A stretch of DNA of 64,000 nt, taken from Antedon mediterranea. Lineage: Eukaryota; Echinodermata; Crinoidea; Comatulida; Antedonidae. Shown here in pieces: positions 1,134 to 45,400 of this stretch. The notes beneath the pieces were generated by a model. That model was not told the origin of the DNA. It did not search any database and saw only the letters and a program-made list of their open reading frames with translations. The position numbers were made by a program, and so were the translations under genes. Positions within the stretch are counted from its first letter, which is position 1. Every line of letters starts with the position of its first letter. The DNA lies in NCBI RefSeq assembly GCF_964355755.1, contig NC_092674.1:12157001-12221000 (forward strand). The letters run 5' to 3'.

Positions 1134-2929
1134 TAAACAAGAAATATTTCTTACAAAAAACGCCGCGTAACGTTTTGACTGGACAGCTGTAAGAACAGTC
1201 TTCATTAATTTAATATAATAGGTCGGCCAATCAAAACGCAAGTGAACAAATGGGACTTTACTTTTGATTTATGTCATTGGCCTGTCAGCACAGTCGTTTA
1301 TTTCTAGAATTAAACGCACAAACTTGTATTGGGAATAATGTATGTTTATGTGGTTATTACTATCGCATTTAGGTATTGATAATAATAATATGGCTTTTGA
1401 ATATATAATTACTGTCTGTAGAATAACATTTATACATTTTCGGTTCGCGATGAAAAGTTATATGAATGGATTTGTAATAGGTATTTATAATAATAGTATA
1501 TGGGTTGTATTATTGCTAAGCTATCACCAAATCGCGTTATACCATTATTTCTCAGGTTTTTTTGCACCATTGATCAATACCAAACGCTTATCGGTATTAT
1601 AGTTTTTAATGAATCATTACATTAATAAAAATACCCAATTAAATCAATCGCGTCAGTCCAATTCCGACTTATGTTTCGATCACATAGTTCTGTGTCTACA
1701 CTGTCCCAACTACTTTAACAAAAAAAGTGTGATGTGCCCAAATATGGTAGTGATATGCCCGAATATTGTAGTGGACATCGTCATGTCTATATAATATGGG
1801 CACATCATATTTAGTTTGATAGTATAGACAGAGCTTAAGGATTATATTTAAAAAATGTTTTCTTACATTTTGAAAAAAAAGTATTTATTTGTTTATAAGC
1901 CCAATTTTCCAGTCTTAATTTTACATTTTGGAAAAAAAGTATTTTATTTGTTGATAAGCCCAATTGTGCAGTCTTATTTTACATTTTGAACGAAAGTTTT
2001 TATTTGTTGATAAGCCCAATTTTGCAGTCTTATTTTACATTTTAAACGAAAGTATTTATTTGTTGATAAGCCGAATTTCCAGTTTAATAATAATGACCCT
2101 TCCACAGTGCTTATACCATATAAATTTTACATGATATTGACCGTGGGTTCTTTACGCCTCTGATGCATTTGTTTTTATTGTACCTTTTTAATAATTTATT
2201 ATATGTTTAGGCCTAATCACACCCAATTTAATGAAACAGTCAGATTCCGATTTCAATTGAACGAAAGTAGTACTGTATTTATTATTCATTGATAAGCCAA
2301 GGGTCCCATGGCGTTAGCCGATATCTTGAGCATTTGACTCATGTGTCAACCTGTAACACAAATCATTCTTCAAAATTTAAAGAAAGAACCTCACACGTCT
2401 TTTTTGTGAGTGATACACTATGGATATGCCCACGGAAATAATGTGTGGACATTGCAAACAATCATAGGCCTACAGTAACAAACATAACATGGCTAATAAG
2501 CATAACACTCAGACTTGTTTGTTTTCTAGTGGATTTTTATTTACTTTAGCATGTAGAATAAAACTAGTAACAGTGGCTATATTAATAATTATTATACTGA
2601 TTATCCTTGATGTTATCGCGTCTAATAATAAAATATTTTGTTGTTGATAAGCCCAATTTTTTAGCCTTGATTTTACATTTTGAACGAAACTATTTATTTG
2701 TTGATAAGCCCAATTTTGCAGTCTTAATAATGACCCTTCCACAGTGCATTTTACATGGTATTGACCGAGGGTTTTTACGCCTCTATAGCCACTGATCAAT
2801 ACCACAATTAATGTACTTTTTTAAATGAATATTGAAATGTTTCAACATACCCAATTCAAAAAAACGGTCCGTTTTCGGGTTCAATCTTTTGATTAGAGAG
2901 GTTGGAGTTTCATTTTGAACGAAAGTATT
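1134..2929. repeat. Duplicated block 1, copy A
   Basis: Near-identical, same orientation, to 33735-35528, with small indels only. It contains an internal array of a roughly 55-70 bp unit built on 'ttgttgataagcccaatttt' / 'cattttgaacgaaagtattt', at about 1855-2085 and again near 2640-2725. No coding function is supported. Confidence 0.9.
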
Positions 2930-3006
2930 TATTTGATTGATAAGCCAAATTTCTCTTCCTAATGATTTGAGATTCAACGGGTTTTGCTTTCAATTGTATA
3001 ATAATA

Positions 3007-3007
<1 letters not shown>

Positions 3008-3064
<57 letters not shown>
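3008..3064. repeat. (TA)n microsatellite
   Basis: More than 25 uninterrupted TA dinucleotides lie within the 1.25 kb present only in copy A between duplicated blocks 1 and 2. Confidence 0.95.
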
Positions 3065-3071
<7 letters not shown>

Positions 3072-3293
3072 GTATAATTATGAATTCACCAACACTTTCA
3101 GGCCCAATAATGATCCCGGGCCCGAGTTTTTGTAGACCGGACTTCCATGCACAGCCACATGTTAAGGAATATGAATCTCTTTATTATTTTAATATGGTTC
3201 GAAATGATATTACACAACAACGATTAGACAGCAACTGTGCAAGAGTCCAACTAATAAAATCGGAATGATCAATTAATTGAACATTTACAGCAT

Positions 3294-3655
3294 AAGGCCC
3301 ATACACTAGGACGATAACGATCGACGATAAATAGACAAATGTGCATTTTTAATAAATAAACCAAAAGAAATATAAACAATTCCTTTGATGAAATTATATT
3401 TTCACACGTCCAATCAAATGACGTCATGATTAGTAAGACCAATAATATCGTGACAATACAGCGATTTTATTGTTTTTATTTATCATGACGTCATTTGATT
3501 GGAATTTGAAAAACATTATTTTTATCAAAGACAGCATAAATGATTATCCTATAGGTCTAGAACGAAAACCTTTCTAATTTCTTTTGGTTTATGTAAAAAA
3601 AATGCATGCTATATATTTATCGTCCGTCGTTATCGTCATAGTGTAATTGGGCCTT
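3294..3655. mobile_element. MITE-like inverted-repeat element (about 360 bp)
   Basis: Termini are inverted: AAGGCCCATACACTA at the left and a 'agtgtaattGGGCCTT' end at the right, continuing inward as gacgataacgatcgacgataaat against atttatcgtccgtcgttatcgtc. Inner parts also pair (ccaatcaaatgacgtcatga with tcatgacgtcatttgattgg). There is no coding capacity and no clear target duplication. Confidence 0.75.
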
Positions 3656-3812
3656 TATACAAAAAAAAATAAATTGATTACGAAGTTACATGTCATTTTC
3701 ACCTATCACCAAAAAACTAACCTTTTCAACACTAATTGTTACGAAGCCAATTTATGTTATATATTTCATTAAAACTGAACTTTACGGTAAATGAAGAGTA
3801 AGTATCAGTTAT

Positions 3813-3859
3813 CTAGTTATATTATTCATATTAACAGTTAATATGAATAATATAACTAG
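3813..3859. repeat. 47-bp near-perfect palindrome
   Basis: Two perfectly complementary 23-nt arms (ctagttatattattc... and ...gaataatataactag) surround a single A at 3836. The whole could fold as a hairpin or cruciform. There is no gene next to it. Confidence 0.9.
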
Positions 3860-4176
3860 TAGGTCTATGAACTTGCGTCCAGACACAGAACTGTGACATT
3901 ACTATCATAAATGTTGAAACCACTTATAAAACCTTTTTTTAAAGAAAATCTAATTGTGTTAGGAGAAGGCTAATAAACAAATAGATAATGTACAAACCTT
4001 TTTCTGGAATAATTAATGGAGCAGGCGTTCCTAATAATCTGCTGCTGCTACCTAGACTGATTGTTCACCTTCTGACGATAATTGATTGGACCCCCCCCCC
4101 CCCCCCCCACGGCATCTGATAACCAACAAAAAATTTACCAGGACTGTTTCAATGATTTAATATCTGACGGCGTATT

Positions 4177-4300
4177 ATTATAACATTGGCCTCGATTGAC
4201 AGTCAAAAGAAAGTCATTATAAATACCTCCCTTTATGTTGACAGAGCCAAAATAAAGTTTTGACCATTATCGAATGATTATTTGACAGTGACTTATTATA
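4177..4300. repeat. Duplicated block 2, copy A
   Basis: Matches 35528-35655 (attataacattggcc to gtgacttattata). In copy A it is followed by a 7.4 kb insertion that starts with a hairpin at 4302. Confidence 0.88.
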
Positions 4301-4301
4301 G

Positions 4302-4338
4302 CTAGATGGTACGCTCGCTTCACTCGCGTACCATCTAG
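4302..4338. repeat. Terminal hairpin of a large insertion (left end)
   Basis: An inverted repeat begins and ends with CTAG (ctagatggtacgc ... gcgtaccatctag) around a tcgcttcactc core. It starts exactly where homology to copy B stops. A related hairpin in inverted context ends at 10815. Confidence 0.75.
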
Positions 4339-4683
4339 GTCGTGCCCACAGATGGTTCTCGAATACATAATAATTTCAACGTTAAAAAAATGGCGATTTC
4401 AAATGTACAATAATGCAGGACAATAATACATGTCGTTTACAGGAACGAATAAATAGACACTGTGATTTATGTACTCAACTAAAATTAGCACCCTGGGAAT
4501 TACTTCCGAAAGAGAAACTTGTCACAAAATGAGACCAATTGTTTAAGTCAGATTTAAACAAACTTAATTTGTGTTTTGTATTTAACATTATGGTTGAGGG
4601 ATGGGGAAGAGGATGGGTGCAAAGAGGAACAATTTTTAAATATATTTTTTATTTTGTAACGAAATATTAATTGTTTTCATGTT

Positions 4684-5998
4684 TTACAAATAATATACCA
4701 CTAAACACAGTAAAACATTGCGATGTAATACTTTATTGAAACTATCACCGTCGTAGTCGATTGAAATAGTACAGTACATGTAACGATACACTACGACGTA
4801 TGTTTCTATATATAAATTATGGTTAATTCTGACATAGGCGAGCACAATGCAAAAACTTCGGTACAAATCTCCGCCTTGGATACCTACCTTATCTATCCGA
4901 GATGTACCGCGAAACGTCGATTTGATAACATTAGTGTTCACGCCGACGCTATTGTTCCATATTTATATCTTAAGAAGATATTATAAAGAGTTTTTAGCAA
5001 CATTTATGATTTCAACATTAGATTTTCCTCTCAATTTCAATTCTTCCCGGTCAAAGTAATTTCCGGGTTTAAGATAAGTTCACCTTGCAAAGACCTGGTT
5101 TCAAATATTTTCTCTCTTTTAAACACAAGGGAGCAGTTAAAATAATAGATTTGACCCTAAAGGTGACTGGAAACAGGCACTTTCCATCAATCAATACAGT
5201 GTCCCTTTGGAAGACAGTAGTTAAATAATAGGAATTATACTGCAAATTAATAAAGATCAAATTAAATATACGCCATAAAGAATCAGAATATACTGTGGGG
5301 AATAGTATTATAAAATTACATAGGGAGATTTGATGATAAGACATTTTTGGAGTCAAATCCCGATAGCTGAGTTTTATTGAGTAAGCTTGCAGGAATAACA
5401 GTAGGCTATCTTCCTGTGTCCCATTAGGACCAAGATGTCTGCCCATGTTGCAAGCCGTAATGTCTTCTTTCTTGGGCCCACTCTGTCACGGCAGTTAGTT
5501 TCAAAAGATGATTAAATTAAATAATGTATTAATAATTATTAGGATGGTATTCATTTGAATAAACGCCTCTCCAATAAAACATCACTTTGAATAATAAACC
5601 ACACCCCCCCCCCCCCCAACCCAACTATCTAATAAACGTCCATCCACATATTTATAATAACACAATTATACTATTTGTAGTAGAATTCACCGCACTGTTA
5701 TCTACAATTTACCAAGCATTTGTTATTCTTTTTTAGCACTTTTCATATCTATTAGAGGATTTCATTTGATTATAAATGTTATATTATAAAATTATTATAT
5801 TATTAAAACTAAAAAATTGAACATATATCCCTCGAATAAGCACCTCCCTCAAATGACCTCCGCCTCCCCAAAGGGCCCTACCAAACAATAAAAACTATAC
5901 TTTAAAATGTTATTAATCATCTAAAACACTGTGAAATAAAGTAGTTTAGTTTAAAGAATGTCAAGCATTTTCAATAATGGTAACCGACAGAAAACGTA
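4684..5998. other. Non-coding, no gene supported
   Basis: Open frames here (for example 125 codons on the minus strand at 5069-5446) lack recognisable domains, and the sequence is AT-rich. Homopolymer C runs at about 4090 and 5605 are present. Confidence 0.45.
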
Positions 5999-6679
5999 CA
6001 CTGTAAAAACTGGCGCTGTATTTTAACACGTTGTGATGTTTAATTATCAACGGTAGGTGTTAAAATAGCATATTATTAACACTTGGTGTGTTATCAGTGC
6101 CGTTAAATTTTAACACCATGGTGTTTATAACGATCATTGTATTTTAAAATAAAGTTTTACATGGGAAATAATACATAGGCCTATGCTATGATAGGCCTTA
6201 TTCATTTTCGTGATTTAAAAACATTGGTAAACCTATGAATATGAATTTCAGAGCTACGAATATCTCAGCTTTTTTTCCTGTTTTGTTATATTTACTCCGT
6301 GAAAATATTTTATTAACGCATGACGTTTAAAGTATACTCGTTGAAGCTTCTCACTGTTTAACGCATAGCGCTTGCAGATAAGAAGTCACATGATCACGCG
6401 GCGCGCGCGATCCGAGCGACGACGAGAGGCCGGTTTAAGGCCGGTGCACACCGAACGCGAAGCCGCGAAGCGTCATGCGTCACGCGTCATTTGACGGATC
6501 GCTTTGAAAGTTGAATTGTCATGCGTCTATTAGTTTTTCTTGTCGGTTCCCACTAAACGCGTCACGATGTGCTGATTCGTCGCGATTGCTAGGCCTAGGA
6601 GATAGTGGGTTGGCCAATAATACAATGCTACATTTAAAATAATCAGAGAAGATGACTCTGAAGTATTTCCTATGTAAGT

Positions 6680-6732
6680 TTAACCAGAGAAGAGTTAAAT
6701 TAAAATGTAATTTAACTCTTCCCTGGTTACAC
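6680..6732. repeat. Short perfect-stem hairpin
   Basis: aaccagagaagagttaaatt pairs with aatttaactcttccctggtt across a short loop, with one mismatch. It lies inside the nested element; function unknown. Confidence 0.75.
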
Positions 6733-7469
6733 CAATCACAGTGTTTGGTTTTGGTGGGAAAATGTTATCCTTTTCCAAAGCCTGAAATGTGCATGATTGT
6801 ATGTATATATAACAAGGACAGAAGAAGATGTATCCAATATCAATACAGTTACAAGAATTAAAGCATTTATTGCATGTTGATTACACGTACATGTGATCTG
6901 CTGACTGTATTTATTAGTGGTGTTACAAATATCTTTCAACAGAGGTTATTATAACCATATAAAACATTTCATATAAACACGAACTGGGAATCTTCATGGG
7001 TTTGTCACTTTAAAAATATAAACTATATGCCTATATATTAATGTAAAGTTTTCACATTTATTTTCTAATTATTATTAAATATTATATTATTCATGAAAAA
7101 ACATACAGTTTTATTCTCATTTTATTAAATGTAATAAATATCTCAAACTCATATTTACACTGTATTTATTATCTTATGACTTTTTTTTCACATAAATACA
7201 CTTATTGAAATAGTGAATCATTGTTTTTAAAGGTATCGTTAAATATCAACCAGATTTTCTTTTTTACTACTCCTGAATACTTTTGCAAAATAATATCAAA
7301 ATAATAAATTTAAAATGTATCATCCCAAAAAAAATGAAAATTGAAGAAATATTATTATTGTTAAAAGTGAATAACTAACCCTAAAGTGTTATACTGTATT
7401 ACACACAACGAAAATGTTTTAAATTATATTTTCAGGAAGACAATATATCTTTTCCAAAAAATGACACTA

Positions 7470-7650
7470 AACTTAAAGATGTATTGTCCCATAGAATCAT
7501 GAAAAATGAAGATGATTAAAGTCAAATTTGAATAGGCCATTTTGTAGTTTTAACAAAGTTAATCACTTACATAGAAAAAACCCAACAAAACTTATGTTTT
7601 CACTTATAAAATGAAAAACATTCCATTAGCTGGCAGCCAATTTTACTATT
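7470..7650. repeat. Fragment of 'ttaaagatgtatt' MITE family
   Basis: Starts ttaaagatgtattgtccca and includes a 'gctggcagccaattt' word. It is related to the better-preserved element at 45150-45413 and to a fragment at about 21640-21720. Confidence 0.55.
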
Positions 7651-8124
7651 TTTTTAGTATTGGAGTATAACAAAACATATACATATATTTCCATGTGTTC
7701 TCTATTGCTAAAAAAAGACATTCAGTTCAGCTTTCCTTCTATAACCACTTAATAAATACTAGTTACAGTCCAACTCCTCCTTAATCTCTTCCATTTTCTA
7801 TTTAAAAAAAAAATGAAACAAGTATTAAAAAATTGCTATAGTAAGGCATATTGCTCAAATCATTTTTTTCTGGCCAATGTATGTCACCAACTGACATACC
7901 CATTTGAAAAAAGTCTATACAAACCTGTATCAGCCTCATAATTGCCAGTCCACGTTTTTGAGGAGCAATTGCTCTTAATTCCATGGCAATAATAATACTG
8001 GCCGCTTAAACTACTAGCTTGGTCATTGGTGGAGTTTGTAACGCTGGTAATAGCCTGAAGGATCCCATTTATCAATATTCATCTAATTGACCTAAAAAAA
8101 ACAACAGTATTTATGTATTAATAT

Positions 8125-8450
8125 TACTACTACTAGGCCTATCCTAGCCTTACAACACTAAATCAACTAAATATTAGGCCTATAAATATTAATTAATAAT
8201 AATAAGTAGGCCTAAGCTAGGTACTGTACTCATATTTAGTAGTAGGCTTAACCTAGGCTAGGCCTGGCCTAGCACATAGTAGACTAGTAGGGATTAGTAA
8301 GTATTATGTAGGCCTATAAGTACTACTTGGCATGGCCTAGCCTACTAGGGTATATGTAGCCTAGGCTAGGTAGGCCTAGCTAGGCCCTAGTATTGCCTAA
8401 ACCTAGGTAGGCCTAGCTAGGCCTAGCCTAGGCTAGAAATAGGCTTGCCA
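8125..8450. repeat. TAGGCCTA/CTAGGC cluster
   Basis: Dense, irregular strings of the self-complementary words taggccta, cctaggc and ctaggctag. The same kind of cluster recurs at about 9090-9660, 18885-19060, 36520-36750 and 37830-37885. Confidence 0.85.
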
Positions 8451-9089
8451 ACTCACTTTACAAATTGATCTCTGACGCGTTTTAGGCCTAGTTTTTCTGG
8501 CATTCTTCTACACAGATGTTTGTCTGAAATTATTGTCTTCATGCATTAATCCTTATGTTTCTGTCTGTGTTTGACTTACTTCCCTTATCGTAAAGACAAG
8601 AAGGGTAAGTATTTCCATAAAGACCTCGCTCGTCAGCCACCATTTTTTTGCCGTCGGTGTCGTCGATGAGAGATATTCCTGACTTCTGATTGGTTGACGA
8701 ACGCAAACCGCGCTCGCGACGCCTCAAAAAGTTGACCAAGGTTCAACTTTTGAAAATTCGCGTGCGAAGCCTTCGCTGCTGTCGTTTTCAACGCGTTGAA
8801 GTTGAAATTCGACTATCGTACACTGTTCGCTTGTATGTTCACACTGGAAGCGTCCGTCGCCTGCCGCGTGCGTCACTTTTTAACGCGAAATTCGCGGCTT
8901 TGCGTTTGGTGTGCACAGGCCTTTAGAGATTCAGGCGCCATTGTTTTCCATTGGCGAGCGGGATAATCGCAGAAGATCACAATCACTAATCACATCAATC
9001 TTCTTTCATCGTATAGGTAATTGTTATCTGTATTTTGAACTACTGATAGTTTTATCCTGTTTTGGTCGTAGTTCGAAGTGAAGGATATT

Positions 9090-9660
9090 TGTAATTATGG
9101 CCTAGCTAGGATCTCCTAGTATTTAACTGTAACATAGATTAGGCTAGGCCTGATGGACCAGTGCGTTCGCCATACTACTTTCTTACACAACCGCCGCGCG
9201 CGCCTTTTGGCGCAAGTCCTCTCTCCCCGAGTTTATGGTCCGGTCGCATTTGAACAGTCAGACATTAGAACTAGGCCTAGGCCGGGTATATATATAGGCA
9301 CTAGCTAGGCTATACTATTACTAGTGTTCAGAAAATCTAGGCTTGGCCACCAGCTATAGAATAGGCACTACCTAGCCTAGGCCTATGATGGCATGCTAAC
9401 TGGGCCTAGCTAGCCTAGCTAGGCCTAGGCTAGCCTAGTACTAGGCTAGGTAGGCCTAGTTACTAGCTAGGCTAGCCTAGGTCTAGCCTAGTAGTAGTCT
9501 AGGCCTAGGCTCTAGCTAGCCCTGCCTATTACCCTAGGTCTACTAGCCTAGCCTATTTTCTGAATACTTGCCTAGCTAGGCCTGTGCCTACTACTAGTCC
9601 TAGGCCCTCTTTATTTTTAGTACTTCATTTTAGGCCTAGCCTAGGCCTACCTACCTATTA
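9090..9660. repeat. TAGGCCTA/CTAGGC cluster (largest)
   Basis: The longest run in the window of overlapping ctag/aggcct words, without a fixed period. It looks like expansion of a short palindromic word and not like a classical tandem repeat. No gene. Confidence 0.88.
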
Positions 9661-9870
9661 TTAATATGCCTGCCTACTCCTTGCCTACCGGGCTACCTAT
9701 TTAAAAATAAATGGGTCATATGACCAATTCAAATATGAGCCCCTAACTAGGCCAGTCTACTTCTAAGGTCCATACATTTTTTTTATTAGTTTATCAGGTC
9801 CCCGCGAAATTACGATTTTTTTAAATTGTTTTGAAATTGTTTTTAATTTAATTTTTTTTATTAATATATT

Positions 9871-10381
9871 TTATTTTGAGGGAGCTGAGGATGATTAGAC
9901 TACTACACATCCTGGAGAAGAAGGTTGCCGTTGTCAAAGGCAAAGGTACCAGATCCAAGACCGTCATGACAATGTTGGAAGTAGGTGATTAGTAATACTA
10001 ATAATTAACACATTGATTTATGTATAGTTTGATTTTTGCCCCGAGTCTTAATTGTGTAGCGCGCTATATAAAAACTGACATTATTATTATTAAAATATAA
10101 TATCCACCTGACCATGCATCAGTTAGATATGCCTAAAAGTGACTCTCAATCAAATAAAATAACTGAAAATGAAATCAATTTACATTTCCTTATATTTCAG
10201 GTAGAGGAAATTGAAGTATCAGATGACGTTCTGAAAAGCTTCAATTCAAGACAAAAGTCCTCTTGCCCTACGCATTGTGTGTATGGACGGCAGTACAAAG
10301 ATATTTATTGTTGGTGAAGGGCAGTTTATAAACTTTCAAGGGCAAACTGTTCCAAACATTCTCTACCAAAGTTAAAAACGC
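9871..10381 (+). pseudogene. Two-exon gene fragment with frameshift inside TIR element
   Basis: A segment near 9883-9980 reads MIRLLHILEKKVAVVKGKGT then RSKTVMTMLE and ends at gtaggt. A second segment after tatttcag (10201) continues VEEIEVSDDVLKSFNSRQKS. A one-base frame change near 10256-10262 then allows SPLALRIVCMDGSTKIFIVG ... ILYQS and a stop near 10377. A candidate polyadenylation signal (attaataaag) follows near 10509. It looks like the damaged 3' end of a spliced gene. I do not recognise the family; it may be host-derived or the element's own gene. Confidence 0.5.
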
Positions 10382-10559
10382 AAAGCTATGATCGCATTTA
10401 CAAGATCTGAAACAGTGACAAAAATGATTTTTTTTTCATTTTTATGTTTATTACAGATACTATTTAAGAGTACTTTAACACCATTCTGTATATAAACATG
10501 TTTTAGCATTAATAAAGTGTTATCCACTCATAAACGTGTATATGTGTTATTTCTTTTAA

Positions 10560-10700
10560 CGCCTGAACGTGTTAATAATTTGGAACTTTAACACCTAAAC
10601 GTGTTAATACTTATGGAAACATTAACACTTAAACGTGTTAATAATTTTTACATTAACACTTAAACGTGTTCATTAAGTGTTATCCGAAACGTGTTAATTT
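10560..10700. repeat. Subterminal 'cgtgttaat' tandem repeats
   Basis: Five or six imperfect copies of a unit around 25-30 bp carrying 'aacacttaaacgtgttaat' lie just inside the right end of the CACTGTAAAAA element. Subterminal repeats like these often serve as transposase-binding sites; here that is inference. Confidence 0.7.
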
Positions 10701-10778
10701 TAGCGTTTAAACATTAACACTACTTTTTACAGTGTATAAGGAGAACATTATCATTCCGAGAACCATCGTCTACACTTC

Positions 10779-10815
10779 CTAGAGGGGGAGCGAGCGAAGC
10801 GAGCTCACCCTCTAG
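10779..10815. repeat. Terminal hairpin of a large insertion (right end)
   Basis: An inverted repeat bounded by CTAG (ctagaggg ... ccctctag) with a gagcgagcgaagcgagctc core. It is related in inverted context to the hairpin at 4302-4338. Confidence 0.75.
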
Positions 10816-11713
10816 TATATATAATGTTAAACAATTTGTGAAAACCACCTCTATTCGGGGAAAATCATAAATTCGATTTAATCGTCAATAAATATTAAAT
10901 TATCTAACTCAACTTAATTAGTAGGCCTTATGGTTTTCAATTGTTTCTTAGAGCCAATTCATAATTAAGTTGGTTCCTACCCTACCCACCATAGTTGTTC
11001 TGCGTTTAGGGCATGTGATGCACCGCATAGGCCTATCCTCTACTGGCTTTACAACGCTACTCATGCCAGTGAGGGAAGGGTGATGATGTGGGTAGTTTAA
11101 ATGCAAAAATAAAGATTTGTACATAATATACGGCGACTATCCGTTTAAAAAAAATTATATCCAAACCTCTGCAGTACAGATTGGAAAAAAAATGGATCGA
11201 ATTACTTGCCTTTACGACGCCTGAGGGAATAGACACTTGTGGAACAGAGATTGGAATGTTCCATTCATCGCAAATCAATACATTTATATAAACGTATATT
11301 AAATCTATCAAAATAGTATTTTTAAAAGAAAATCGGCCTGTCTTCAACATTATGATGCTGTACTCGAGCTGTTCAACCGGTTTTCAGCCATTAAAAACAA
11401 TTATCGTAGGAGGAGATAGGAAAATGCGAAGCATCCTCGTATTATTGTCTTCGGGTATTTTTCAAGACGGACATCCATTAGACAGTGTATACCACGATCG
11501 AAAAACACCCCTATTTGGGGCAAATCGTTGAACCTAAATTCGTTTTAATTGTCAATAACTAATTATCTAACTCAATTTAATTAGTAAACAGGGTTACATC
11601 AGGTGGTTAAAATCAGTACCGAGATTCTAACCAACTTTATATACCATCGAGTAAACATTCTAGAAATAACGCGCGATTTACTGATTTTTGCCCTTACGTA
11701 AATTTATATATAG
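10816..11713. other. Copy-A-only sequence with a direct repeat pair
   Basis: No gene. Two related segments in direct orientation, about 10848-10922 and 11502-11586 (both ending 'attatctaactcaa.ttaattagta'), lie about 650 bp apart. The 97-codon minus-strand open frame at 11057-11350 has no recognisable domain. Confidence 0.5.
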
Positions 11714-11993
11714 ATACCGGCCTGGTTGACAGCAAAAGCGAAGTTATTATTTATTGAACAAGATTTTACAGATTTCCGTCTACATCTCAATAATACTGTA
11801 TTATCAACAAAGGCTTTCATATAGACTCTCTTCTCCCAGACGTTTTTTGGGTCCAGCAGCTACCTATAAATTATAGTCGAGTTTCCAAATTCACAAAACC
11901 GTCAGCCTTAGATACTAAAGCTACCGCTATGAAACAGCTTATTAATGAATGTGTCCTCCTGGGACATAGCTGGCTAGAGCCGCGGCGTGAAAA
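11714..11993. repeat. Duplicated block 3, copy A
   Basis: Matches 35656-35936 in the same orientation (ataccggcctggttgacagc to gagccgcggcg). It is the third colinear block shared by the two copies. Confidence 0.88.
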
Positions 11994-12103
11994 TTACAGT
12001 ACACACATTATACACATCTTCTTGTGGGTCTAAGCTTTCTATGGGCTATGTCTAATTACTACTTAGTTGAATGTCTTGCCTAGCTGTCGATTAGCGTTTC
12101 CCT

Positions 12104-14180
12104 TGAACAAATCATTCATTTTTGGTATCAATGTATAGTGTATAGCTCTACAAGTTGATAAAAAATATGTGATAATTAAAAAATTTATGACATTAAAAAA
12201 GATCAAAAGGTCATATTTTTTTTGAAAATGGAAAAATTCTGGTATCTACAAACATGTCAATATACTGTATCTTTTAAATATGCTTTTTGTTAAAAAATTG
12301 GCTAAAATGATTCATATATGATAGGTATATACATTCTGATTAATATAACCATGTTTAGGTACATGTATATACATGTAGCTATAAATATGTACACAACTTA
12401 GCAAAACAATCAGTTTCATTATTTTCTGTACATTTTTGGGGTAGGGGTTAATAACAATAGCGATAAGTATAATTTTTCTTGAACAAATCTTTACAAATAG
12501 ATATTAGTTTCTAGGGTAATGTCTGTTTTACATTTTGATGTTATATTTAGTATAATTAGACAATTAATTATAGTAACATTGCATTCCACTGAGTTAGATA
12601 GAGAAAGTGATAGAGAAGTGATTCTTATTTGTGACGGAAAAGCACATCAGATAATATCAGACTGTAGTACCATATCAACAACAGAGCTGATCAACCTTCA
12701 ATCCAAGAAGAGACAGACTCAAGAGTGATATTATATTGCTTTTATGGAAGAGAGGGGGCTTTAAGTATGCTAGAATTAGGAGTCCTTCCTGTGAAATTGT
12801 CTTTATTTTGCTGAATCATGCCATTCAGTTATCTGGAATACAAATAAAGTTTGAGACTGGAACAGGCAAAAAAAGGTAGATGTATCAATATTTCAAAGAT
12901 AGCATACGTGTACACACAGCAGTACTGTTCAGCATTATTGGCTCTACACGCATTTACAGGGTGTGATAGTGCCTTCAGAAGGCATTTGCCAAGCTTGGAG
13001 ACAATTGAGATGTTGACAAAGAACTTGTTGATGAACTCAAAAAGAGAAATGTGGATTGGGTGGAGGTTTGTTAAATCCATCAAAATATTGATGACAAATA
13101 ATCTAGGTGGACTGCAACAGGAAATGGATCAGAGCCACCAGAGAACAAATTTTATCACAAAACATTATTATATTGATATTCTTGAAAAAACCTGATGATC
13201 CAAAATTCCAGGGAGATGAAGAGAGTGATTCAGATAAAGATTAATTTAGGTATTTTAATTATACATTTACATGTTTGTAGATACAGTACCTAATTTTTTT
13301 TTTAATGTGACCTTTTGATCTAATGTGACGTCATTCATTATCCAATTACACTAAATATAAAACAGACATTACCCTACATACTAATATCTATTTGTAAAGA
13401 TTTTTGATCAAGAAAAATTATACTTTTTATCGCTATTGTTATTAACCCCTACCCCAAAAATGTACAGAAAATAATGAAACTGATTGTTTTGTTAAGTTGT
13501 TTACTTATTTATAGCTATATACATGTACCTAAACATAATTATATGTATCAGAATTTATATATTTTAGCCAATTTTTATACAAAAATGTTGGCATATTTAA
13601 AATATACAGTATATTGACATGTTAATTGTAGATACCAGAATTTTTCCATTAAAAAAAATTGTGACCTTCTGACCCTTTATAATGTCATTAATTATTTAAT
13701 TACCTCATATTTTATATCAACTTGTAGAGACAATACTCTATACATTGATACCAAAATAAATGATTTGATCAAGGAAAACTGTACTTATGGCTATTCGTAT
13801 TAACCCCTACCCCAAAAATGTACAGAAAATAATAAAACTGATTGTTTTGTTAAGTTGTGTACATAAGCCTATTTATAGCTATATACATGTAGGCCTATAT
13901 GAATCAGTATTTTGATACCTATCATATATGAATCATTTTAGCCAATTTTTAGACAAAAATGTTGGCATATTTAAAAGATATATTGACATGTTTGTAGATA
14001 CCAGAATTTTTCAATTTTCAAAAAAATTGTGACCTTTTGATCCTTTGTAATGTCATTAATTATTTAATTACCACATATTTTATATCAACTTGTATAGCAG
14101 ACAATACTCTATACATTGATACCAAGATTGAATGATTTGTTCAAGGAAAACTGTACTTATGGCTATTTGTATTACCCCAA
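12104..14180. mobile_element. Element with roughly 400-bp inverted repeats
   Basis: The left arm (about 12104-12530) is the inverse of 13355-13770, sharing ccttgaacaaatcattca, ggtatcaatgtatag, agaattctggtatctac-type and ttggggtaggggttaataa words. A second, shorter tandem copy of the right arm follows at about 13770-14180. The eroded ORF at 12560-13240 lies between the arms. It looks like a DNA transposon with long TIRs. Confidence 0.65.
12519..13240 (+). pseudogene. Eroded TE-associated ORF with 'ALHAFTGCDS' motif
   Basis: Segments in different frames read VILICDGKAH, a TELINLQSKKRQTQE stretch resembling the 'HSTHEEADTRMILHA' block, IQLSGIQIKFETG and finally YCSALLALHAFTGCDSAFRR. I recall this order of blocks from repetitive, transposon-linked ORFs common in marine invertebrate genomes, usually ending 'LTGCDSTSALSGIGKK'. 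Here stops and frameshifts at about 12728 and 12850 break it. The function of the family is not known to me. Confidence 0.55.
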
Positions 14181-20258: not shown

Positions 20259-20262
20259 TCAG

Positions 20263-33734: not shown

Positions 33735-35528
33735 TAAACAAGAAATATTTCTTACAAAAAACGCCGCGTAACTTTTTGACTGGGCAGTTGTAAGAACAGT
33801 CTTCATTAATCTAATATAATAGGTCGGCCAATCAAAACGCAAGTGAACAATTGGGACTTTACTTGTGATTTATGTCATTGGCCTGTCAGCACAGTCGTTT
33901 CTTTCTAGAATTAAACGCACAAACTTGTATTGGGAATAATGTATGTGGTTATTACTATCGCATTTAGGTATTGATAATAATAATAATATGGCTTTTGAAT
34001 ATATAATTACTGTCTGTAGAATAACATTTATACATTTTCGGTTCGCGATCAAAAGTTATATGAATGGATTTGCAATAGGTATTTATAATAATAGTATATG
34101 GGTTGTATTATTGCTAAGCTATCACCAAATCGCGTTATAACATTATTTCTCAGGGTTTTGTGCACCATTGATCAATACCAAACGCGTATCGGTATTATAG
34201 TTTTTAATGAATCATTACATTAATAAAAATACCCAATTAAATCAATCGCGTCAGTCCAATTCCGACTTATGTTTCGATCACATAGTTCTGTGTCTACACT
34301 GTCCCAACTAGTTTAACAAAAAAAGTGTGATGTGCCCAAATATTATGGTAGTGATATGCCCGAATATCGTAGTGATATGACATCGTCATGTCTATATAAT
34401 ATGGGCACATCATAATCATATTTAGTTTGATAGTATAGACAAAGCTTAAGGATTATATTTAAAAAATGTTTTCTTACATTTTGAACGGAAGTATTTATTT
34501 GTTTATAAGCCAAATTTTCCAGTCCTAATTTTACATTTTGAAAAAAAGTATTTTATTTGTTGATAAAGCCCAATTGTGCAGTCTTATTTTACATTTTGAA
34601 CGAAAGTATTTATTTGTTGATAAGCCCAATTTTGCATTCTTATTTTACATTTTAAATGAAAGTATTTATTTGTTGATAAGCCGAATTTTCCAGTTTAATA
34701 ATAATGACCCCTTCCACAGTGCTTATACCATATACATTTTACATGATATTGACCGTGGGTTCTTTACGCCTCTGATGCATTTGTTTTTATTGTACCTTTT
34801 TAATAAATTATTATATGTTTAGGCCTAATCACACCCAATTTAATGAAACGGTCAGATTCCGATTTCAATTGAACGAAAGTAGTACTGTATTTATTATTCA
34901 TTGATAAGCCAAGGGTCCCATGGCGTTAGCTGATATCTTGAGCATTTGACTCTTGTGTGAACCTGTAACACAAATCATTCTTCAAAATCTAAAGAAAGAA
35001 CCTCACACGTCTTTTTTGTGAGTGATACACTATGGATATGCCCACGGAAATAATATGTGGACATTGCAAATAATCATAGGCCTACAGTAACAAACATAGA
35101 ATGGCTAATAAGCATAACATTCAGACTTGCTTGTTTTCTAGTGGATTTTTATTTACTTTAGCATGTAGAATAAAACTAGTAACAGTGGCTATATTAATAA
35201 TTATACTGATTATCCTTGATGTTATCGCGTCTAATAATAAAATATTTTGTTGTTGATAAGCCCAATTTTTCAGCCTTGATTTTACATTTTGAACGAAAGT
35301 ATTTATTTGTTTATAAGCCCAATTTTGCAGTCTTAATAATGACCCTTCCACAGTGCATTTTACATGATATTGACCGAGGGTTTTTACGCCTCTATAGCCA
35401 CTGATCAATACCATAATTAATGCACTTTTTTAAATGAATATTGAAATGTTTCAACATACCCAATTCAAAAAAACGGTCCGTTTTCGAGTTCAATCTTTTG
35501 ATTAGAGAGGTTGGAGTTTCATTTTGAA
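33735..35528. repeat. Duplicated block 1, copy B
   Basis: Counterpart of 1134-2929, including the same 'gataagcccaatttt' internal tandem units (about 34475-34695 and 35250-35335). Here it is joined directly to block 2, without the 1.25 kb that separates them in copy A. Confidence 0.9.
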
Positions 35529-35655
35529 TTATAACATTGGCCTAGATTGACAGTCATAAAAAAGAAAGTCATTGTAAATACTTCCCTTTATGTTGACAGA
35601 GCCAAAATAAAGTTTTGACCATTATCGAATGATTATTTGACAGTGACTTATTATA
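35528..35655. repeat. Duplicated block 2, copy B
   Basis: Counterpart of 4177-4300; joined directly to block 3. Confidence 0.88.
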
Positions 35656-35936
35656 ATACCGGCCTGGTTGACAGCAAAAACGAAGTTATTATTTATTAAA
35701 CAAGATTTTACAGATTTCCGTCTACATCTCAATAATACTGTATTATCAGCAAAGGCTTTCATATAGACTCTCTTCTCCCAGACGTTTTTTGGGTCCAGCA
35801 GCTACCTATAAATTATAGTCGAGTTTCCAAATTCACAAAACTGTCAGCCTTAGATACTAAAGCTACCGCTATGAAACAGCTTATTAATGAATGTGTCCTC
35901 CTGGGACATAGCTGGCTAGAGCCGCGGCGCGAAAAA
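35656..35936. repeat. Duplicated block 3, copy B
   Basis: Counterpart of 11714-11993. It ends about 400 bp upstream of MED12 exon 1. Confidence 0.88.
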
Positions 35937-35944
35937 ATTCCTAT

Positions 35945-36080
35945 ATTTTGACCTTGTTTGACCTCTTGACCACATAAACTGACCTTAAAACCCAAAACTG
36001 AAGATGGCATCCACCCTATCGTTTTTATCCCCACAAAGGATACATTCAACATGGTTGCCTGCTATTAACAAAAAATTCCC
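35945..36080. repeat. Dispersed repeat, inverted partner of 30410-30570
   Basis: ttgaccttgtttgacctctt, ggcatccaccctatcg and catggttgcctgctattaac match the reverse complement of the 30.4 kb repeat. A C homopolymer follows. It sits just upstream of the MED12 promoter region. Confidence 0.75.
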
Positions 36081-36101
36081 CCCCCCCCCCACCCCAAACT
36101 T

Positions 36102-36341: not shown

Positions 36342-36434
36342 ATGGCGTCTTATAAACATCAAGAAGGAAGACCATTAAAAAGACCAAGATTGGGACCTCC
36401 AGATGTTTATCCACAAGATCCAAAACAAAAAGAA
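36342..36434 (+). CDS. MED12: MED12 exon 1
   Basis: Codons 1-31, starting [20 protein letters not shown] and ending in KQKE before a gtaaat donor. The start is supported by an in-frame TAA at 36333-36335 and by the highly conserved [20 protein letters not shown] block. The intron falls after KQKE, the same place as in human MED12. This exon has no counterpart in upstream copy A. Confidence 0.96.
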
Positions 36435-39400
36435 GTAAATAACCAGTTACTTTTACATTTATTCGTGAAGCACCTGCCTGAACATACTTTTTTTATTAGG
36501 AGTAATTACTGTAAATATTCTAGGCCTAGGCCTAGGCTAGGCCTACTATAGGCTAGGCTAAGTAAGCTATACAAGGCCTAGTTTACTAGGCCTAGCTAGG
36601 AGAGAAACACAGTCAAAGTCTAATTAAACCTTATATTATAGTACCTTGGGCCTAGGCTATATTATTAATAAATATTAGGCTATATAGGTGTTCAAGTATG
36701 GAATCCGTATCTTCAAAAGGACATACCTAGCTAGGCCTAGCCTAAATGTAATTGAAAGAGTACAACGTCGTGCGACTAAATTAGTTCCATGTATCCGTTC
36801 ATATTCATATGATTGAAGATCGACTAAAGCTTCTTGCCCTTGGCCTAACAACCTTGTACGACAGAAGAATTCGAGGTGACCTGATTGAAGCATATAAAAT
36901 TGTTAAAGACCCCTTCCCTGCAATTTTGGACGTTTTTTGGAAAATAATACATATATATCACTTTAAAAACATTAAACCATGTCATTCCTTGTCTTAAATG
37001 TTGTACGTTTTATGGTAAATTATGATAAAAAGTGAGAAACAATGCACTACCTAAGTAGCTCGCGGCGATCGAACTCTCGTGGACGGTCTCAGGCCTAGCC
37101 TAGCTAGGCTTAGTTTTGTAGGCCTAGCTGGTAAACATCGGTAACGTTCGAACATCGTACGCTAGCTATATACCTAGCCTGACGTTGTATAGTTGCTGCA
37201 TTAATTGTCTTTCTATTTTTGCCAGACTCCGTTGATACAAATTGGGGAACACCCGGTATTTTCGCTGAAAAGTTAGGAGTCTTCCATTTGTTTTGGCTTT
37301 ACGATCAATCGAAAAGTGGGCGAATTACAGGTGAAAAACAAAAATATCAATCCGCGCGCAATGCATTTTGGGATTTATAGCGGGCCGCTATAATTATTAA
37401 AATCGATTTATTTTTCACATTTTTAACCGTTTAAAGACGAAAAAAGTTATCGCAATAGGACCATATAGTATTATTTTTACATTAAATATAGTTTGTGATC
37501 TTAAATTAGATCTAAAAAATGTAGGGAATGGGGCTTTAAAGATTTCGAGGGTGTAGCCAAGGATGACTTTTTCCAAATGAGAAGTAACATTAATTAGCCG
37601 AACTACTCGAGGACATCACCTGAGATTTTTCAAGCCTATGTTCCATAAAGGATTGAACTGTAGAAGACATACCTTCTCGCAACGAGTAATAAACCATTGG
37701 AACAGTTTACCAGCTGACGTTGTTAATTCTGAGATCACTAACACCTTCAAGAATCGCATCGACACAATGTAGTTGATATGGGGTTAAAAAGGCATTCGCC
37801 TAAACTTTCCCATTATAACTAAACTAAACTAGGCCTAGAGGGCCTAGGCCTATATACTTTTCTAGCTACGCTAGGCTAGGCATTGCTTGTTGTTGGAATC
37901 CTTGTTGTGGGCCTCTGTGGTTGTTGTTGTCCTAGGCCTATTTATTAGGGGTCTCTGTTCTCCAAAAAAATAGACCCCAACAAAAACTTTTCAATAGCGT
38001 TTAATATAATATCGAAGATTTCCTTGCGCAATTTAAATCAAATTTACTTTTGATTGCGCAGATAATTTAAAATAAAAGTAAACAATGTGTTTAAAAAGAT
38101 AGTAAAAGATTAACATGTTATTATAATTTAGCAACACAATGTTGTGCAGATTCAAATTTCACAACGAAAAATTGTTGTACTATTTTATTTTAAGTTGTGC
38201 ATAACATTTTGCATTCGCCCAAGGTTATACCAATATTCATACCTACATATTCATACCTACTTCATTACTATTATCCTGATGTTGATTAAACTGATTTTTG
38301 TTATAGGAAATGATTTGTACATTTTAGTTTAACATAAGAACTGTTTCCATGATGCGATGTTTGCACATTATTGGATTAAACATTTTTACAGATTTGTACA
38401 TTTGAGGGTGCCATTAACAAACCCTCAACAAACACTTTTCAACACTAGTTAATGTAAGGGATTTTAAAACTTCTCAATATTATGTTATATACCGTAGGGT
38501 CTTTGTTTTGAAGATTTTTTGAAAAAAAAAGAGACGTCCAAAAATGGTCTTTGCTACTGTAGGCTTGGAGGGTTTTGAATTTATTAACATTACTGTATTT
38601 TATTTCTAGGATGAATTAACAACTAGCAATGTTAAACAAGGTTTTACTAATCAGCCCAGCTTCTCTGATGAGGTAAGTAAAGTATTTGGTAACATCATCA
38701 ATTTATAAATACAACAATAGGCCTAATAAATTTAACACAATTTTGAGATAATACTGTCATTAAAATTATTTATAAAAAAATAAACACCCAGCTTTGAATT
38801 AATTTCTCCCTAGAATAAACTCTACCCTAACACAATTACTGTATAATTATTATAACATATTTCTATTTTTGGTAGAATTCATTGACTTCCATGATTTACC
38901 TAGATTTACCAAGCATTTTGTTACACTTTTTACTGTATTTTATCACTTCTTGATATTTAATTGTGTTGTCAAAATTAATTATTTTATTTAGCATTAAGGT
39001 GGCACATTCAACAACAAAAAATGCTTTACTGAATGCTAATATGGAATATTATGTAATTCTTGATTATGACATTTTTTTCTTCAGACGGGGACTGCCAGAA
39101 ATAGTCACATTAATCATGCTAAGGTAACACAATAATTTATAGTTATACATGTTAAAAATTAATTAAATAGTAAATTGAAATCATTGTCCTACTACTGAAG
39201 GTTGTTATTTTTGTTACTACTTTTTATAGTACTTGCTGCTTTGTTTGTTTGTGCGTGCACAATAGTGTCCACAATTTTTAAGTTATCGTCCTGAATTTTT
39301 GGGTGTTAATAGGTATATACACAGAACATGCCAATTAATTTGCAAGAAAATTCATATATATTGGTCAGTCACAAAAGCTTATTAATATCTTACTTACTTG

Positions 39401-42400
39401 TATCTTTCATATAGCAAGCCCTCTGTATTCTTTTAACATGGCCCAAAATATTACCATGCGCCCTCTGTGGCAAAAAAAATAAATACTTCACTCAGTTTCG
39501 AAGTGCTTTCATTTAACTTGTAAATTAATTATTTTTCTAGTATTTTGTTCAATTTTTTTTTTCATTTAGATTGAACATATCATTATCAACTTGTGTTTTA
39601 TTTTAATATATGTTTTTTATGTTTGCAGTTTGGCACATATTTCAGTGGCATAGTTGCAGAGAAACAAAAGTTAAACACTCTGCAAGATGGAGGACGAAGA
39701 AAAGTATTAGTATCGAGGGAAAATTTTTGGAATGTAAGTTACTAAATAAAAACATACAAAAACTTGTCACAGTGATTAATTAAACAATTTTGTATTAGTT
39801 CATTCAGGCATCCTTCAGTAAAAAATGTACATGTACAAATACATCGGACAGACAACAAGGTTGAAGCGGCCTCCTCAAGTATGCCCGAGCAAAGTATACT
39901 GTATGGAACTCATAATTCTCTGGTATTGCTAGTAGAATTAATTTGAAATGGAGACCAGTTCCAATACTAGTAGTACACCAAATGTTATTAAGATGCAGCA
40001 CTGTTTTTGTGGATTTTCCACTGTATGGATTTTTTTTTATAATGGATTAATTCTAATCAATGAATTTTTTAAACTTTTAGGTTACACAAAGAAACACTAG
40101 TAGTATGCATACATGGTTTCAAGATTTGGCTGGAATACGCCCACTTGCCATACTTGCTAAGAAAGTAAGTTGATTGTTGTTTTCTTAAACCAAAAATAGC
40201 AGCTTTTTGCATTTTCAGTTATTGAAAAAGTGTTATTTGTTCCATGTCAGTTGCCTTTAACTTTATAGCAGGTCCTAGATTACCAAGACTTCACTGATAC
40301 TGCCTGGAGCTCATTGAGATCAAATCCTATTTTTAAATGGTACAAATATGAGAAATCAATATCTGCTTGTGGATGCAATAATATTTCAGTTTGATAGTGT
40401 TGTTACCATTTCTGTTTTGTTTTTTGGTTAATTTTTTGCAGGTTCCATTATTTCACCGCAAGGAAGAAATATTCCGGATGCTTGCAGAACACCAAGTTCC
40501 CATGATACGTGCTACATGGCTTCTTAAGATGACCCATGCATCTACACAAGCTATTACAGATTCTAAAGTTAGGCCGAAACGTGCACAGAGTGATCCATCT
40601 ATTGGTAAATATTAGCAGAATTATTATGTTTTTTTGTTTTATATAGTTACAACTAAAATTGATTGACGATTAAATGGCTCAGGTTAAGATAATCCGACTC
40701 CACCCCTATCTTTTGACATTAAGAAATACCCTGGTATTGGGGTATTGCCAGGAGTTGGACCCAGAACCCTTGGATTGATAAGGACACATAACCGCCAAAT
40801 GTCATGAAATCTCAAAAGTTCATGTGACCAGCATAAACTGCTTAAAACAGAGATAATCAACCTGTAGCCACTACAGTAGATCTTTTATGAAGGGGACACC
40901 TCAACCCCAGGGACCCAAGAAAGTGTCTCTCTAATAAGGATATCCCCTGACAGGGGGTTTACCCAGAATAGGAGTTGGCCATAGTGTTGATGTATTACCC
41001 CTCATTCACTTTTTTTGGAAAGTGTCTTTTAATATATGATTCCTAAATAGGAGTTTCCTAAAAGTTCTACATACAAAAGAGACAGCAACTTCTATTTCTT
41101 TTTCAGAGTGGTGCCAAGTGATTACAAGGTTTCTCAAGGAAATTTTAAGCAAAATTGCTGATCCACATCAGACACCCAGTGGACCTAATCCTGTTTCAAC
41201 GCTTCAGACGCCAACGATTACTGATAGTGACACAGCACACAAGATGTGGGACTACATGACAACTCTAGCAAGATACTTGTATGAGGTAAGTATGTGACAT
41301 AACTGTGGCTTACTAAACCCGAGTGCGGGGTGGGGAGAGCTGGGTTGTTGGCCGAGTAAGTTGGGGTCTTCTCATCAAAGCTAGCGATTAATTTCAAAGT
41401 TAGCAATAAATTTCCCGATTAGCTAGTAAATAACTGAGCCTAATTGTATACTAACGAGTAAGTTTTTCCCTCTTACAGGAATGTATGCTAGATTGTCATG
41501 AGTATTTATCATGGCTTGTTGAAACGGTGGAAAAAGTTAATCCTAAAGACGACAATATTCTACGTCTTGTACTGCCGATAGTGATGCAGGTTAGTGATAA
41601 CAAAAAAAAAACTGACACATCCAATCCAAAATAATAAATAATAATCATTATTTTTCTCAATTTTTATTTCATGTAATAATATTTTAAACTTGCTGTATAT
41701 TTGTTTTTAATTTGTAGTATGTGGAAGAATTTTGTAAAGGTCAAATTCTGTCACGAAGGTTGGCTTACTTCTGTTGTCGTAAACTTGCTACCTTTTGTTC
41801 TGATGCTTGTAACCCACCGCAATCACCAACTTTGTTAAGCCCTGCAAACAGGTAATCACTTGTTATTATCATATATGTATAAATTTACTATTGATAATTA
41901 AGCTACTAGAATTTATAGTGTTTGGTGGTTAAGATGTTTGGTTACCGATCATAGCCCATCCTTATGATACCACCGCACAGGATTTTTCTCATGACCAAAA
42001 CAGTACTGCTAACTAAGCCTCATATGAGAATATTGTGTGTCTATTTGAATTTGTCTTATTTTAATTTAAACATTTAAAGGTTTTGGAAATGCCAGTAGCT
42101 GCTGGCTGCAATGTAATTTTAATTTTCTTGGACAATAAACACATTTTAACTATTATAACTGCGTAGATAAGTTAAGGGTTGGTGGGAGAAAATAAAACGG
42201 TACTTTCAGGTAGCCATGGGTTTTTGTGGGTGCTATGCTGAAATTAGGCTGGGTGGAAGAACTTAAAATAGCACTTAGGCTAGGTAGAAGACATTGAAGG
42301 TGAATGTTCCATGTTAAATTTATTATATTTCAACCCCTGTCATTGTGGACGAACAGGCACCGTTTGGTGGCAGCACTCGACACGAAGTGACCTTTAAGGG

Positions 42401-45400
42401 AGAACAAATTTGTGGTATGTGTCGTCCACACCTGTGCATAATTCAGCCCAGTAGGCTGCAAGTCACAGGTTATTCCCACATTTACATAATACTACAGTTA
42501 CTGCATTTTGTATACTCTTTAACTTTTTAACAATTATTTTTGTGCGAATGGATAAATCATATACACTCTTTTATTTCAATGACTGCATACACCTCTACAT
42601 TGAAACAAACTAGAGCCATACATTGTTGCAGTGACAAATTTAGTTAATTCAAAAGGAAAAGAAACCATTTGTTTACGCCTTACTGAGTTTTCCTCTTTCA
42701 CTTCTGTTAAGACATTATGCTTCTTTTTAACAAAATTCCCCATCCATAACTATGACAAAACTTGCCAACTTTTGTTACTCTATTATTTCCTTCTGTTGTG
42801 GATTTAGAATTGGGTGATACATTAAAATTCAACAGTTGTTTCAAGAGCTAAAACATCCACTTCATACATACATATTATTTTGTTTAATTATTTCCTCATA
42901 CCATTTGCTCAGAGTATTTCTTCCTTGTTTACACACTTATTTAATTTGGTATCCGCACAAGATTATGTCAGCTCTCTGTATGTTTATACTGTTTACTGAT
43001 ACAGATTTTTTTAATAAATTCCTCCCTGGATGTTTTTAATGTAAAACAAAAGTGAGTGAGTCCTGAGTAGTTGGTTAGTTGGTTTAAATAAGAAAAATAT
43101 AAAGTTCTCAATGTCAAGGAATTATTTGTTTAAGTTAATATTTTAAATTTATAATCTGTAAGCCAGCTGTATAGTAACTGAAATCAATATTATAAATATA
43201 TGAATTATTAAAATATCAATTAATTGATTGAAAGTCATCCACTCTATAGTGATTTTCAATGGTTGGGATCTGGAAGGCATTTAAGGGCTACACGCTGTAG
43301 AACAAAACGCTCCCTTAATTCTTTTGTTCCGTACTCAATTAGACATTTTAATAATCGTTGAATTTTGTTGCTATGTAATGTTATTGTATTATTACCTTTT
43401 AACTTTGAGCAATTGTATGTCACATGAATTTCCGTATGGACAAATAAAATGAACTATGAACTATGATTAGTATAGTAATATCAAATTTATTTCTTTAATC
43501 TATGGTTTGCCTGATTTTACATGCTAATGAAGGTGTATTGGTGTAGAGGGGGTGCGACTAAAAACTGTTGTATCTGATTGGATACTTTATGTAGCCATAT
43601 TCAATGAACCTCCATGGCAGCTTGTTTTTTTGTGTTTTTGCTGTGATTGTGTTTACAATCTAATTGTATAACATAATGGAAAACAAACCATTCTGACATG
43701 AGTTTTTAAAACTAAATATTTGTTTTCTTTCTTTCAGGTTTCAAGCTAATGCACTACCTCCAAGTTCATTATCAATGATTTTCTCCGAGTTCACAAACTG
43801 TGCACAGCATCGACCAATAGTTCTCTTCCTTAGCAGTATTGTACAAACTGTCACATTACAATGTCCTAGTGCCCTAGTTTGGATCAATGTAGGAGAGGCA
43901 AAAAACAGTAATATTCCAGGATCACCTCTGGACTTGCTTCCATGTGCTCCTTCCAGCTTACCTCTACCAAACCCACATAGCTTGCAGGCACAACAGGTCA
44001 GCAAATTGTACAATACATAATTCCATTGATCCATCCATACTGGCTCATATTCAATTTAAAAACTCTAATAATCAAAAGAGGCCAGATTTGGAGGTTTTAC
44101 TAACCATTGACATGCAGATTATGTATTAGTGGAGCTGTTGCTTGGTGGTTGACATGCTAATTGTAAAGTCCAGGGTTCAATCCACAAATGAGATTGAGTT
44201 TATAAAATAGTTTATCCATTCTGTAATTGCCAAATTGCTCGCTGCTGGATGATATGAAATTTAAGAAATAATAACTAAAAGCTAATTCTCATTCCTTAAA
44301 CTAATTGCTACATCTTAATGTATCATCTGTTATAAAGACTAAATATCAGATGTTCATAAAACATGTTCATAGGCCCATTCCCTACCTTAGGCTTGATCAG
44401 ACTTTATGTTTGATTCTGCCAGATGTCATCCCAGTAAATGGAAATCAATTTGACCTGATCATGAAGACCTAAAATTATCATTTCATCATTTGTTCAAGTT
44501 GTTATCCAGCTTTGTAAAATTGACCAGATGACCAAGCCCACACTCAATGTATGTGAATAGTATCTCTATATGGCATCATAGGTCCTAGGTCATCAAAAAA
44601 TCAAAAGCTCCATAAAGTGGGCCCTTATATACTGTACATAGTCATCATCTGATCATATAAAAGGATCTCACTGCCTACCTTTGCTAATTTTGCTAATCAA
44701 ATGAGTATACTAACAGTTAAAAAATACAGTATCAAATGTTTTATTAACATGAATTTGAAATATTATATCTTTAGATAAGAATAGGCCTTCGCAATTCAGA
44801 GATTCAAATCCGTTCCAGAAGCAGAGCGGCAGAACATCGATGGTCTACCGACAAGTCCCAGGAGTCAACAGCTGGTTTTACTATCAATAGAGTGCTGAAT
44901 ACGCTAGAAATTCTGGATCGGCACTACTTTGATCGGTGTGATTCCAACAACAGCTTAGACTCTCTCTACCACAAAATATTTTCAACCAATCAGAGTAAAG
45001 ATGGAAGTGATGTAAGTAATGTTTTGCTAAATATTTTATCATCAATATTGTAAAATCAAGATACCAATAGTGTTTACTTACAAATATGAAGGATATAATT
45101 AATCACAATTTAAAGTAATCCTCATCTTTTTAGTAAATTAGTTTAGCTTAAAGATGTATTAATAGTTATCCACTTTGACCAAAAATTGGATCGAGAAAAA
45201 AAATGTATTTACCTGAAAAAAATGTAATTTAAAGCAAAAAAATGGTCAAATTGGCTGCCAGCCAATGGATTTTTGGTTGAATTTAACCATTTATTTTGTC
45301 ATTTACATTTTTCTATGGTAGTAATTAACTTTATTAAAACCACAAAATAACATATTCAAAGTCTGATTTAATTAATCTTTATTTTTCATGTTTTTGGGGG

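Follow-up and report, generated by a model that had tools for sequence, protein, structure and literature searches.

Partial duplicates of a gene that are kept alike by gene conversion are well known; in the systems reviewed in PMC3449122, just part of a gene was copied in tandem, and conversion keeps the shared part similar but leaves other parts different. The DNA analysed here is a 64-kb stretch of the genome of the crinoid Antedon mediterranea (C5:12157001-12221000, contig NC_092674.1), hereafter the window, which carries the gene of the Mediator subunit MED12 and, upstream, a second copy of its exons 2-10. This copy (A') is probably an old partial tandem paralogue of MED12, partly overwritten by gene conversion and coding-constrained for most of its history; exons 2-10 of the gene proper are termed B'. 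A' differs from the known systems in that both gene ends are absent.

MED12 in invertebrates is usually a single, dosage-sensitive regulator. MED12 and MED12L are full-length genes, whereas A' is without both ends and stands in tandem. The two paralogues, which are named in PMC6451695, are also a duplication of the same Mediator subunit. False heterotype duplications affected 4-16% of the sequence in three older vertebrate assemblies; according to PMC9516828 they are mostly separated by gaps and accompanied by half read depth and discordant reads. A' is like them in being a truncated extra copy beside a gene, with allele-like identity over most of its length.

The DNA read comprised the window, 60 kb upstream and 10 kb downstream of it (134 kb), and copies were searched for in 354.4 Mb of the genome in 18 contigs. 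Long matches were confined to contigs C1-C11, and a search of the genome for COX1 gave no match. No partial MED12 copy of this kind was reported in the titles and abstract starts of the papers listed in a literature search, which is not proof of absence.

Structure of the MED12 locus

The main features of the two copies are as follows.

21360-27053, + strand: copy A', MED12 exons 2-10 and the introns between them, a partial paralogue; likeness is weak over the first 22 bases
21396-21458, + strand: A' exon 2, 63 bp, one synonymous difference from B'
21459-22511, + strand: A' introns 2 and 3 on either side of exon 3, strongly diverged from B'; three of the ends show 78-87% identity
21993-22031, + strand: A' exon 3, 39 bp, one synonymous difference from B'
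22512-27053, + strand: apparently homogenised tract, exons 4-10 and introns 4-9; introns with 2.75% mismatch
26770-27028, + strand: A' exon 10; reading past the donor leads to an in-frame TAA
27051-27285, + strand: dispersed repeat at the A' 3' edge; its first part recurs at 28524-28641
36342-36434, + strand: MED12 exon 1 with start codon, between A' and B'; encodes the conserved MED12 start
38560-44021, + strand: copy B', the MED12 gene proper from exon 2 (38610-38672) to exon 10 (43738-43996)
44775-64000, + strand: MED12 exon 11 (phase 0) and later exons; the gene may extend past the window

MED12 exons 2-10 are present twice in the same orientation with an offset of 17 kb, and A' lies 9 kb before exon 1. 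Exon 1 stands ahead of B' and exon 11 behind it, which places B' within the gene proper; A' consists of exons 2-10 alone. The translation of exon 1 and B' matched the MED12 chain 8tq2_C of the PDB (E=2.3e-116), and PF09497 and PF12145 scored above the cut-off in the translations of both copies. In the genome search with B' (40 of 1,387 first-look candidates scored), the only long match among those listed was A'; the rest were dispersed pieces shorter than 310 bp. As a second nearby copy of part of one gene in the same orientation, with no other long copy listed, A' agrees with the definition of a tandem partial paralogue.

A' is not a full-length gene, since neither exon 1 nor exon 11 was found with it. 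The exon 1 region had no second DNA match in the genome. The exon 1 peptide, searched against the 60 kb upstream and window positions 1-36300, gave a best match of E=0.75 in proline-rich low-complexity sequence; an unrelated first exon was not searched for. The LCEWAV profile gave seven matches in the genome, in which the piece 60-141 (exon 10) occurred twice and five later pieces once each; single copy is shown for these later exons as far as ~47.8 kb. With A', neither exon 11 nor any later LCEWAV exon was found (the PQL domain was not searched for), and no continuation into intron 10 or exon 11 was matched within 27054-30401 at E 0.1. Among eight open frames upstream of A', a Pfam search left seven matchless and gave one weak immunoglobulin match below the cut-off.

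The BLAST likeness of A' to B' begins 14 bp before exon 2, and a weaker likeness begins 36 bp before it (z 1.1; E=0.002). The codon preceding A' exon 2 is an in-frame TAG, so a simple extension of this exon is impossible. Both copies have an in-frame TAA eight codons beyond the exon 10 donor (27050-27052 and 44018-44020), and the homology of A' terminates one base after it. The dispersed repeat at this edge starts at 27051-27052 in 24 of its 40 listed matches; four start up to six bases earlier, and one of these is among the three non-query matches that reach the first bases of the query or nearly so. Because the homology of A' stops at the usual edge of the repeat, A' was either truncated at or close to a mobile element or lost its continuation there.

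Divergence of the introns

Two levels of divergence were observed between A' and B'. In introns 4-9, 90 of 3272 sites are mismatched (2.75%), the values ranging from 1.2% in intron 6 to 5.3% in intron 4. For introns 2 and 3 the difference in forced alignment is 47-48%, and their cores align no better than shuffled sequence (z 1.1 and 1.4). When the intron ends were judged against 56 control pairs, two scored higher than every control: the 5' end of intron 2 with 68 (highest control 47) and the 3' end of intron 3 with 69 (highest control 63). The homology of introns 2-3 is thus supported at two of four ends. The pooled alignable sites differ at 34 of 192 positions (18%); the pool consists of the two ends that beat the controls and the 21 bases before exon 2 (z 1.1), whereas the two other ends, 3' of intron 2 and 5' of intron 3 (the latter with 12 differences in 69 sites), lie outside it. 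The pooled sites were picked for aligning, and therefore 18% is a low estimate.

Introns 2-3 of B' also hold dispersed fragments at 38848-38969 (listed relatives 81-88%) and 39225-39538 (73-89%), and intron 2 of A' holds one at 21630-21705 (74-93%). With the A' introns as query, the only match in B' was the neighbourhood of exon 3, so these fragments are not common to the two copies. The sharp step in divergence along homologous sequence, from introns 2-3 to introns 4-9, is the pattern of a gene-converted pair. A' would be best read as an old copy that carries a younger homogenised stretch.

A 163-bp tandem duplication (99% alike) was also seen at 23107-23433 in intron 5 of A'. It is missing in B' and is apparently a recent change in A'.

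Coding integrity of A'

The nine exons are equal in length in both copies (1137 bp in total) and run from phase 0 to phase 0. All nine acceptor AGs are kept in A', and all nine donor hexamers are identical to those of B'. No frameshift, stop or broken splice site was found in A' exons 2-10, and in this respect A' is unlike an unprocessed pseudogene. Between the copies there are 13 synonymous differences in 249 sites and three nonsynonymous differences in 888 sites, which gives a synonymous divergence (dS) of 0.054 and a nonsynonymous divergence (dN) of 0.0034. Exons 4, 9 and 10 carry changes specific to A'. With a neutral A' and a fully constrained B', three or fewer nonsynonymous changes among 16 would have P=0.0003. 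When the intron divergence was used as the clock, 12.2 nonsynonymous changes were expected and three observed (P=0.002).

Exons 2 and 3, which lie outside the apparently homogenised tract, have two synonymous and no nonsynonymous differences; 8.3 nonsynonymous changes would be expected if A' were neutral (P=0.0003). This conservation is the strongest sign of constraint on A' itself, because conversion of exons 4-10 cannot explain exons 2-3. Judged by its sequence, A' still looks like working protein-coding DNA.

Origin of the copy

The following order of events would best account for the locus. MED12 or its 5' half would have been duplicated in tandem long ago, and a long divergence would have followed, visible as the ~18% difference where introns 2-3 can be aligned. 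Later gene conversion of exons 4-10 between A' and B' would have left the intron difference of 1-5% there. Mobile elements (X and Y, described below, LTR-like repeats and others; LTR, long terminal repeat) would have filled the space around and between the copies, one of them directly at the 3' edge of A'. For most of this time A' would have been read as protein-coding, such that the exon 2-3 protein and all splice sites survived and the introns decayed.

Several observations weigh against this history. The heterogeneity among introns 4-9 is modest (P=0.015), so the case for conversion within the tract is not a strong one. Two intron ends, 5' in intron 3 (45 versus 47) and 3' in intron 2 (34 versus 63), remained below the control maximum, and the 18% rests on 192 sites picked for aligning, 21 of which are non-significant alone. 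The unshared fragments, with listed relatives of up to 88-93%, need not be very old. Moreover, residue 67 (counted in the translation of exons 2-10; exon 4) is V in A' but F in both B' and the MED12 chain of the PDB, a change from F to V that hints at some relaxed constraint. A low dN/dS would also be expected if A' had been copied very recently from a divergent allele.

The last point belongs to a different account, in which A' arose by recent partial duplication or conversion from a divergent allele and is functionless, its frame being intact through youth; the diverged introns 2-3 would then derive from an older or introgressed haplotype. The difference of only 2.75% in the tract, the young elements nearby (X relatives 91-96%; an 870-bp element 95-98%) and the change at the conserved F residue are consistent with such an origin. 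However, it needs an allele that is ~18% diverged in introns 2-3 and yet has no amino-acid change in exons 2-3, and the 5' likeness fades ahead of exon 2 as it would in an old copy. We consider a recent origin rather unlikely.

Possible products of A'

The exon 2-10 cassette is in phase 0 at both ends, so A' could splice to exon 11 at 44775. The locus might therefore provide two interchangeable 5' halves of MED12, with A' spliced from an upstream first exon to the shared exon 11, or ending at the TAA past exon 10; this is distinctly unlikely. According to PMC8146938, MED12 residues 30-42 lie against the T-loop of CDK8. Exon 1 ends at the equivalent of human residue 33, so a product of A' without exon 1 would lack the first part of this stretch. 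If two such halves were used, a MED12 without exon 1 and the first CDK8-activating residues would represent a built-in variant of the Mediator kinase module. A partial copy with decayed introns but retained frame and splice sites would amount either to a naturally occurring MED12 variant devoid of the CDK8-activating start or to a clear case of a gene fragment kept fresh by conversion.

Assembly artefact or duplication

A fragment of the MED12 gene of the other haplotype, left upstream of the retained allele, could also resemble A'. Two alleles would show a low dN/dS, 2.75% is possible as heterozygosity in a polymorphic animal, and false heterotype duplications are on record, as described above. 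However, the 134 kb contain no N bases and therefore no assembly gap. As A' has neither exon 1 nor exon 11, the assembly would have to contain two chimeric joins, located in introns 1 and 10. There is no second exon 1 at the DNA level and no second copy of the later LCEWAV exons, and introns 2-3 diverge far above 2.75%.

Allelic flanks are likewise absent here. The sequence after B' (intron 10 and exon 11) has no match in the sequence after A'. The stretch before B' matched the 60 kb before the window only in two repeats of 68 and 637 bp, each in reverse orientation, and matched 11994-21395 in only three stretches of 22-26 bp, one of them directly before exon 2. An artefact of this kind is quite improbable. 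An earlier note on this DNA had judged that two haplotypes placed end to end would fit equally well. With gap-free sequence, single matches for exon 1 and the later LCEWAV exons, unlike flanks of A' and B', and introns 2-3 diverging far beyond introns 4-9, that judgement found no support, and haplotypes laid end to end are unlikely.

Recurring blocks and mobile elements

The same note had described four blocks that recur in the same order and orientation as two colinear copies of one block, a copy A of about 26 kb and a copy B of about 10 kb. The alignments confirmed the recurrence itself.

Block pair 1: 1134-2919 and 33735-35528, 95.9% identity
Block pair 2: 4177-4300 and 35528-35655, 94.5% identity
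Block pair 3: 11704-11993 and 35648-35935, 97.6% identity
Block pair 4: 22483-27053 and 39602-44021, two pieces, 93.2% and 95.4% identity

Within 21382-22096, matches occurred only around exon 2 (91.6% over 107 bp) and exon 3 (80.9% over 115 bp). Block 4 ends near MED12 exon 10 as proposed (the homology stops 25 bp beyond the exon 10 donor), and copy B is indeed without scars where copy A is broken, being uninterrupted at 35528 and 35655. Blocks 1-3 are a single dispersed 2.2-kb mobile element, here named Y, which has inserted into two different hosts.

1134-11993, + strand: element Y, copy A, lying in repeat Z and itself broken at 2920-4176 and 4301-11703
565-1140 and 11990-12095: repeat Z, host of Y copy A
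33735-35935, + strand: element Y, copy B (2.2 kb), lying in element X
30402-36083, + strand: element X, interrupted by Y; 35940-36083 at its end repeats 30438-30582 at its start in inverted form

A search with 33735-35935, in which 40 of 4,590 first-look candidates were scored, listed 72 matching segments on ten contigs, including the query and copy A. Among these matches, near-full-length copies of Y (~2.2 kb) stand at eight other places with 94-98% identity, and the closest relative of copy B is a copy on C2 (98%), ahead of copy A (96%). Y is unbroken in all three copies fetched (L010-L012). X picks up again immediately past Y copy B; in both fetched copies of X (L008 and L009; relatives of X among the matches listed share 91-96%) the site is empty, with the halves contiguous plus an A-rich run of seven bases. 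Both copies of Z seen nearby (L002 and L003) also have an empty site with seven extra A-rich bases. Different hosts with empty sites show that the two Y copies arrived separately.

A single colinear tandem duplication of the entire 26-kb/10-kb block is therefore scarcely credible. The agreement of order and orientation would favour it; however, the empty sites already refute it for blocks 1-3, where the Y copies lie in different hosts, and copy B of Y is closer to the copy on C2 than to copy A among the matches listed. The matching order of the Y copies relative to MED12 is a coincidence, and their matching orientation an even chance. Tandem duplication holds for MED12 exons 2-10 and fails for blocks 1-3; block 4 alone is a local duplication among the four. 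As this case illustrates, a dispersed element that happens to stand in matching order can make a duplication of ~5.5 kb look like one of 26 kb.

Other repeats were also observed around these features. Inside the insertion that splits Y copy A is a CTAG-rich repeat at 9403-9557, set in a G+C-richer stretch; similar CCTAGG runs occur at ~36520-36660 in MED12 intron 1. The stretches 27286-27899 and 14606-15300 are opposite-facing copies of one repeat flanking A', apparently single LTRs; several copies of the repeat elsewhere pair on the same strand ~8-9 kb apart in LTR fashion. An 870-bp element at 20263-21132 is bounded by inverted ends of 68 bp (97%) and contains GCGCAATTT motifs; some 39 further copies were listed at 95-98% (40 of 742 candidates scored), and it was apparently active recently. 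A 187-bp unit is repeated 4.4 times at 95% at 18059-18877. The open frame with the weak immunoglobulin-domain match (L001:22-312, minus strand) is perhaps an exon of another minus-strand gene upstream.
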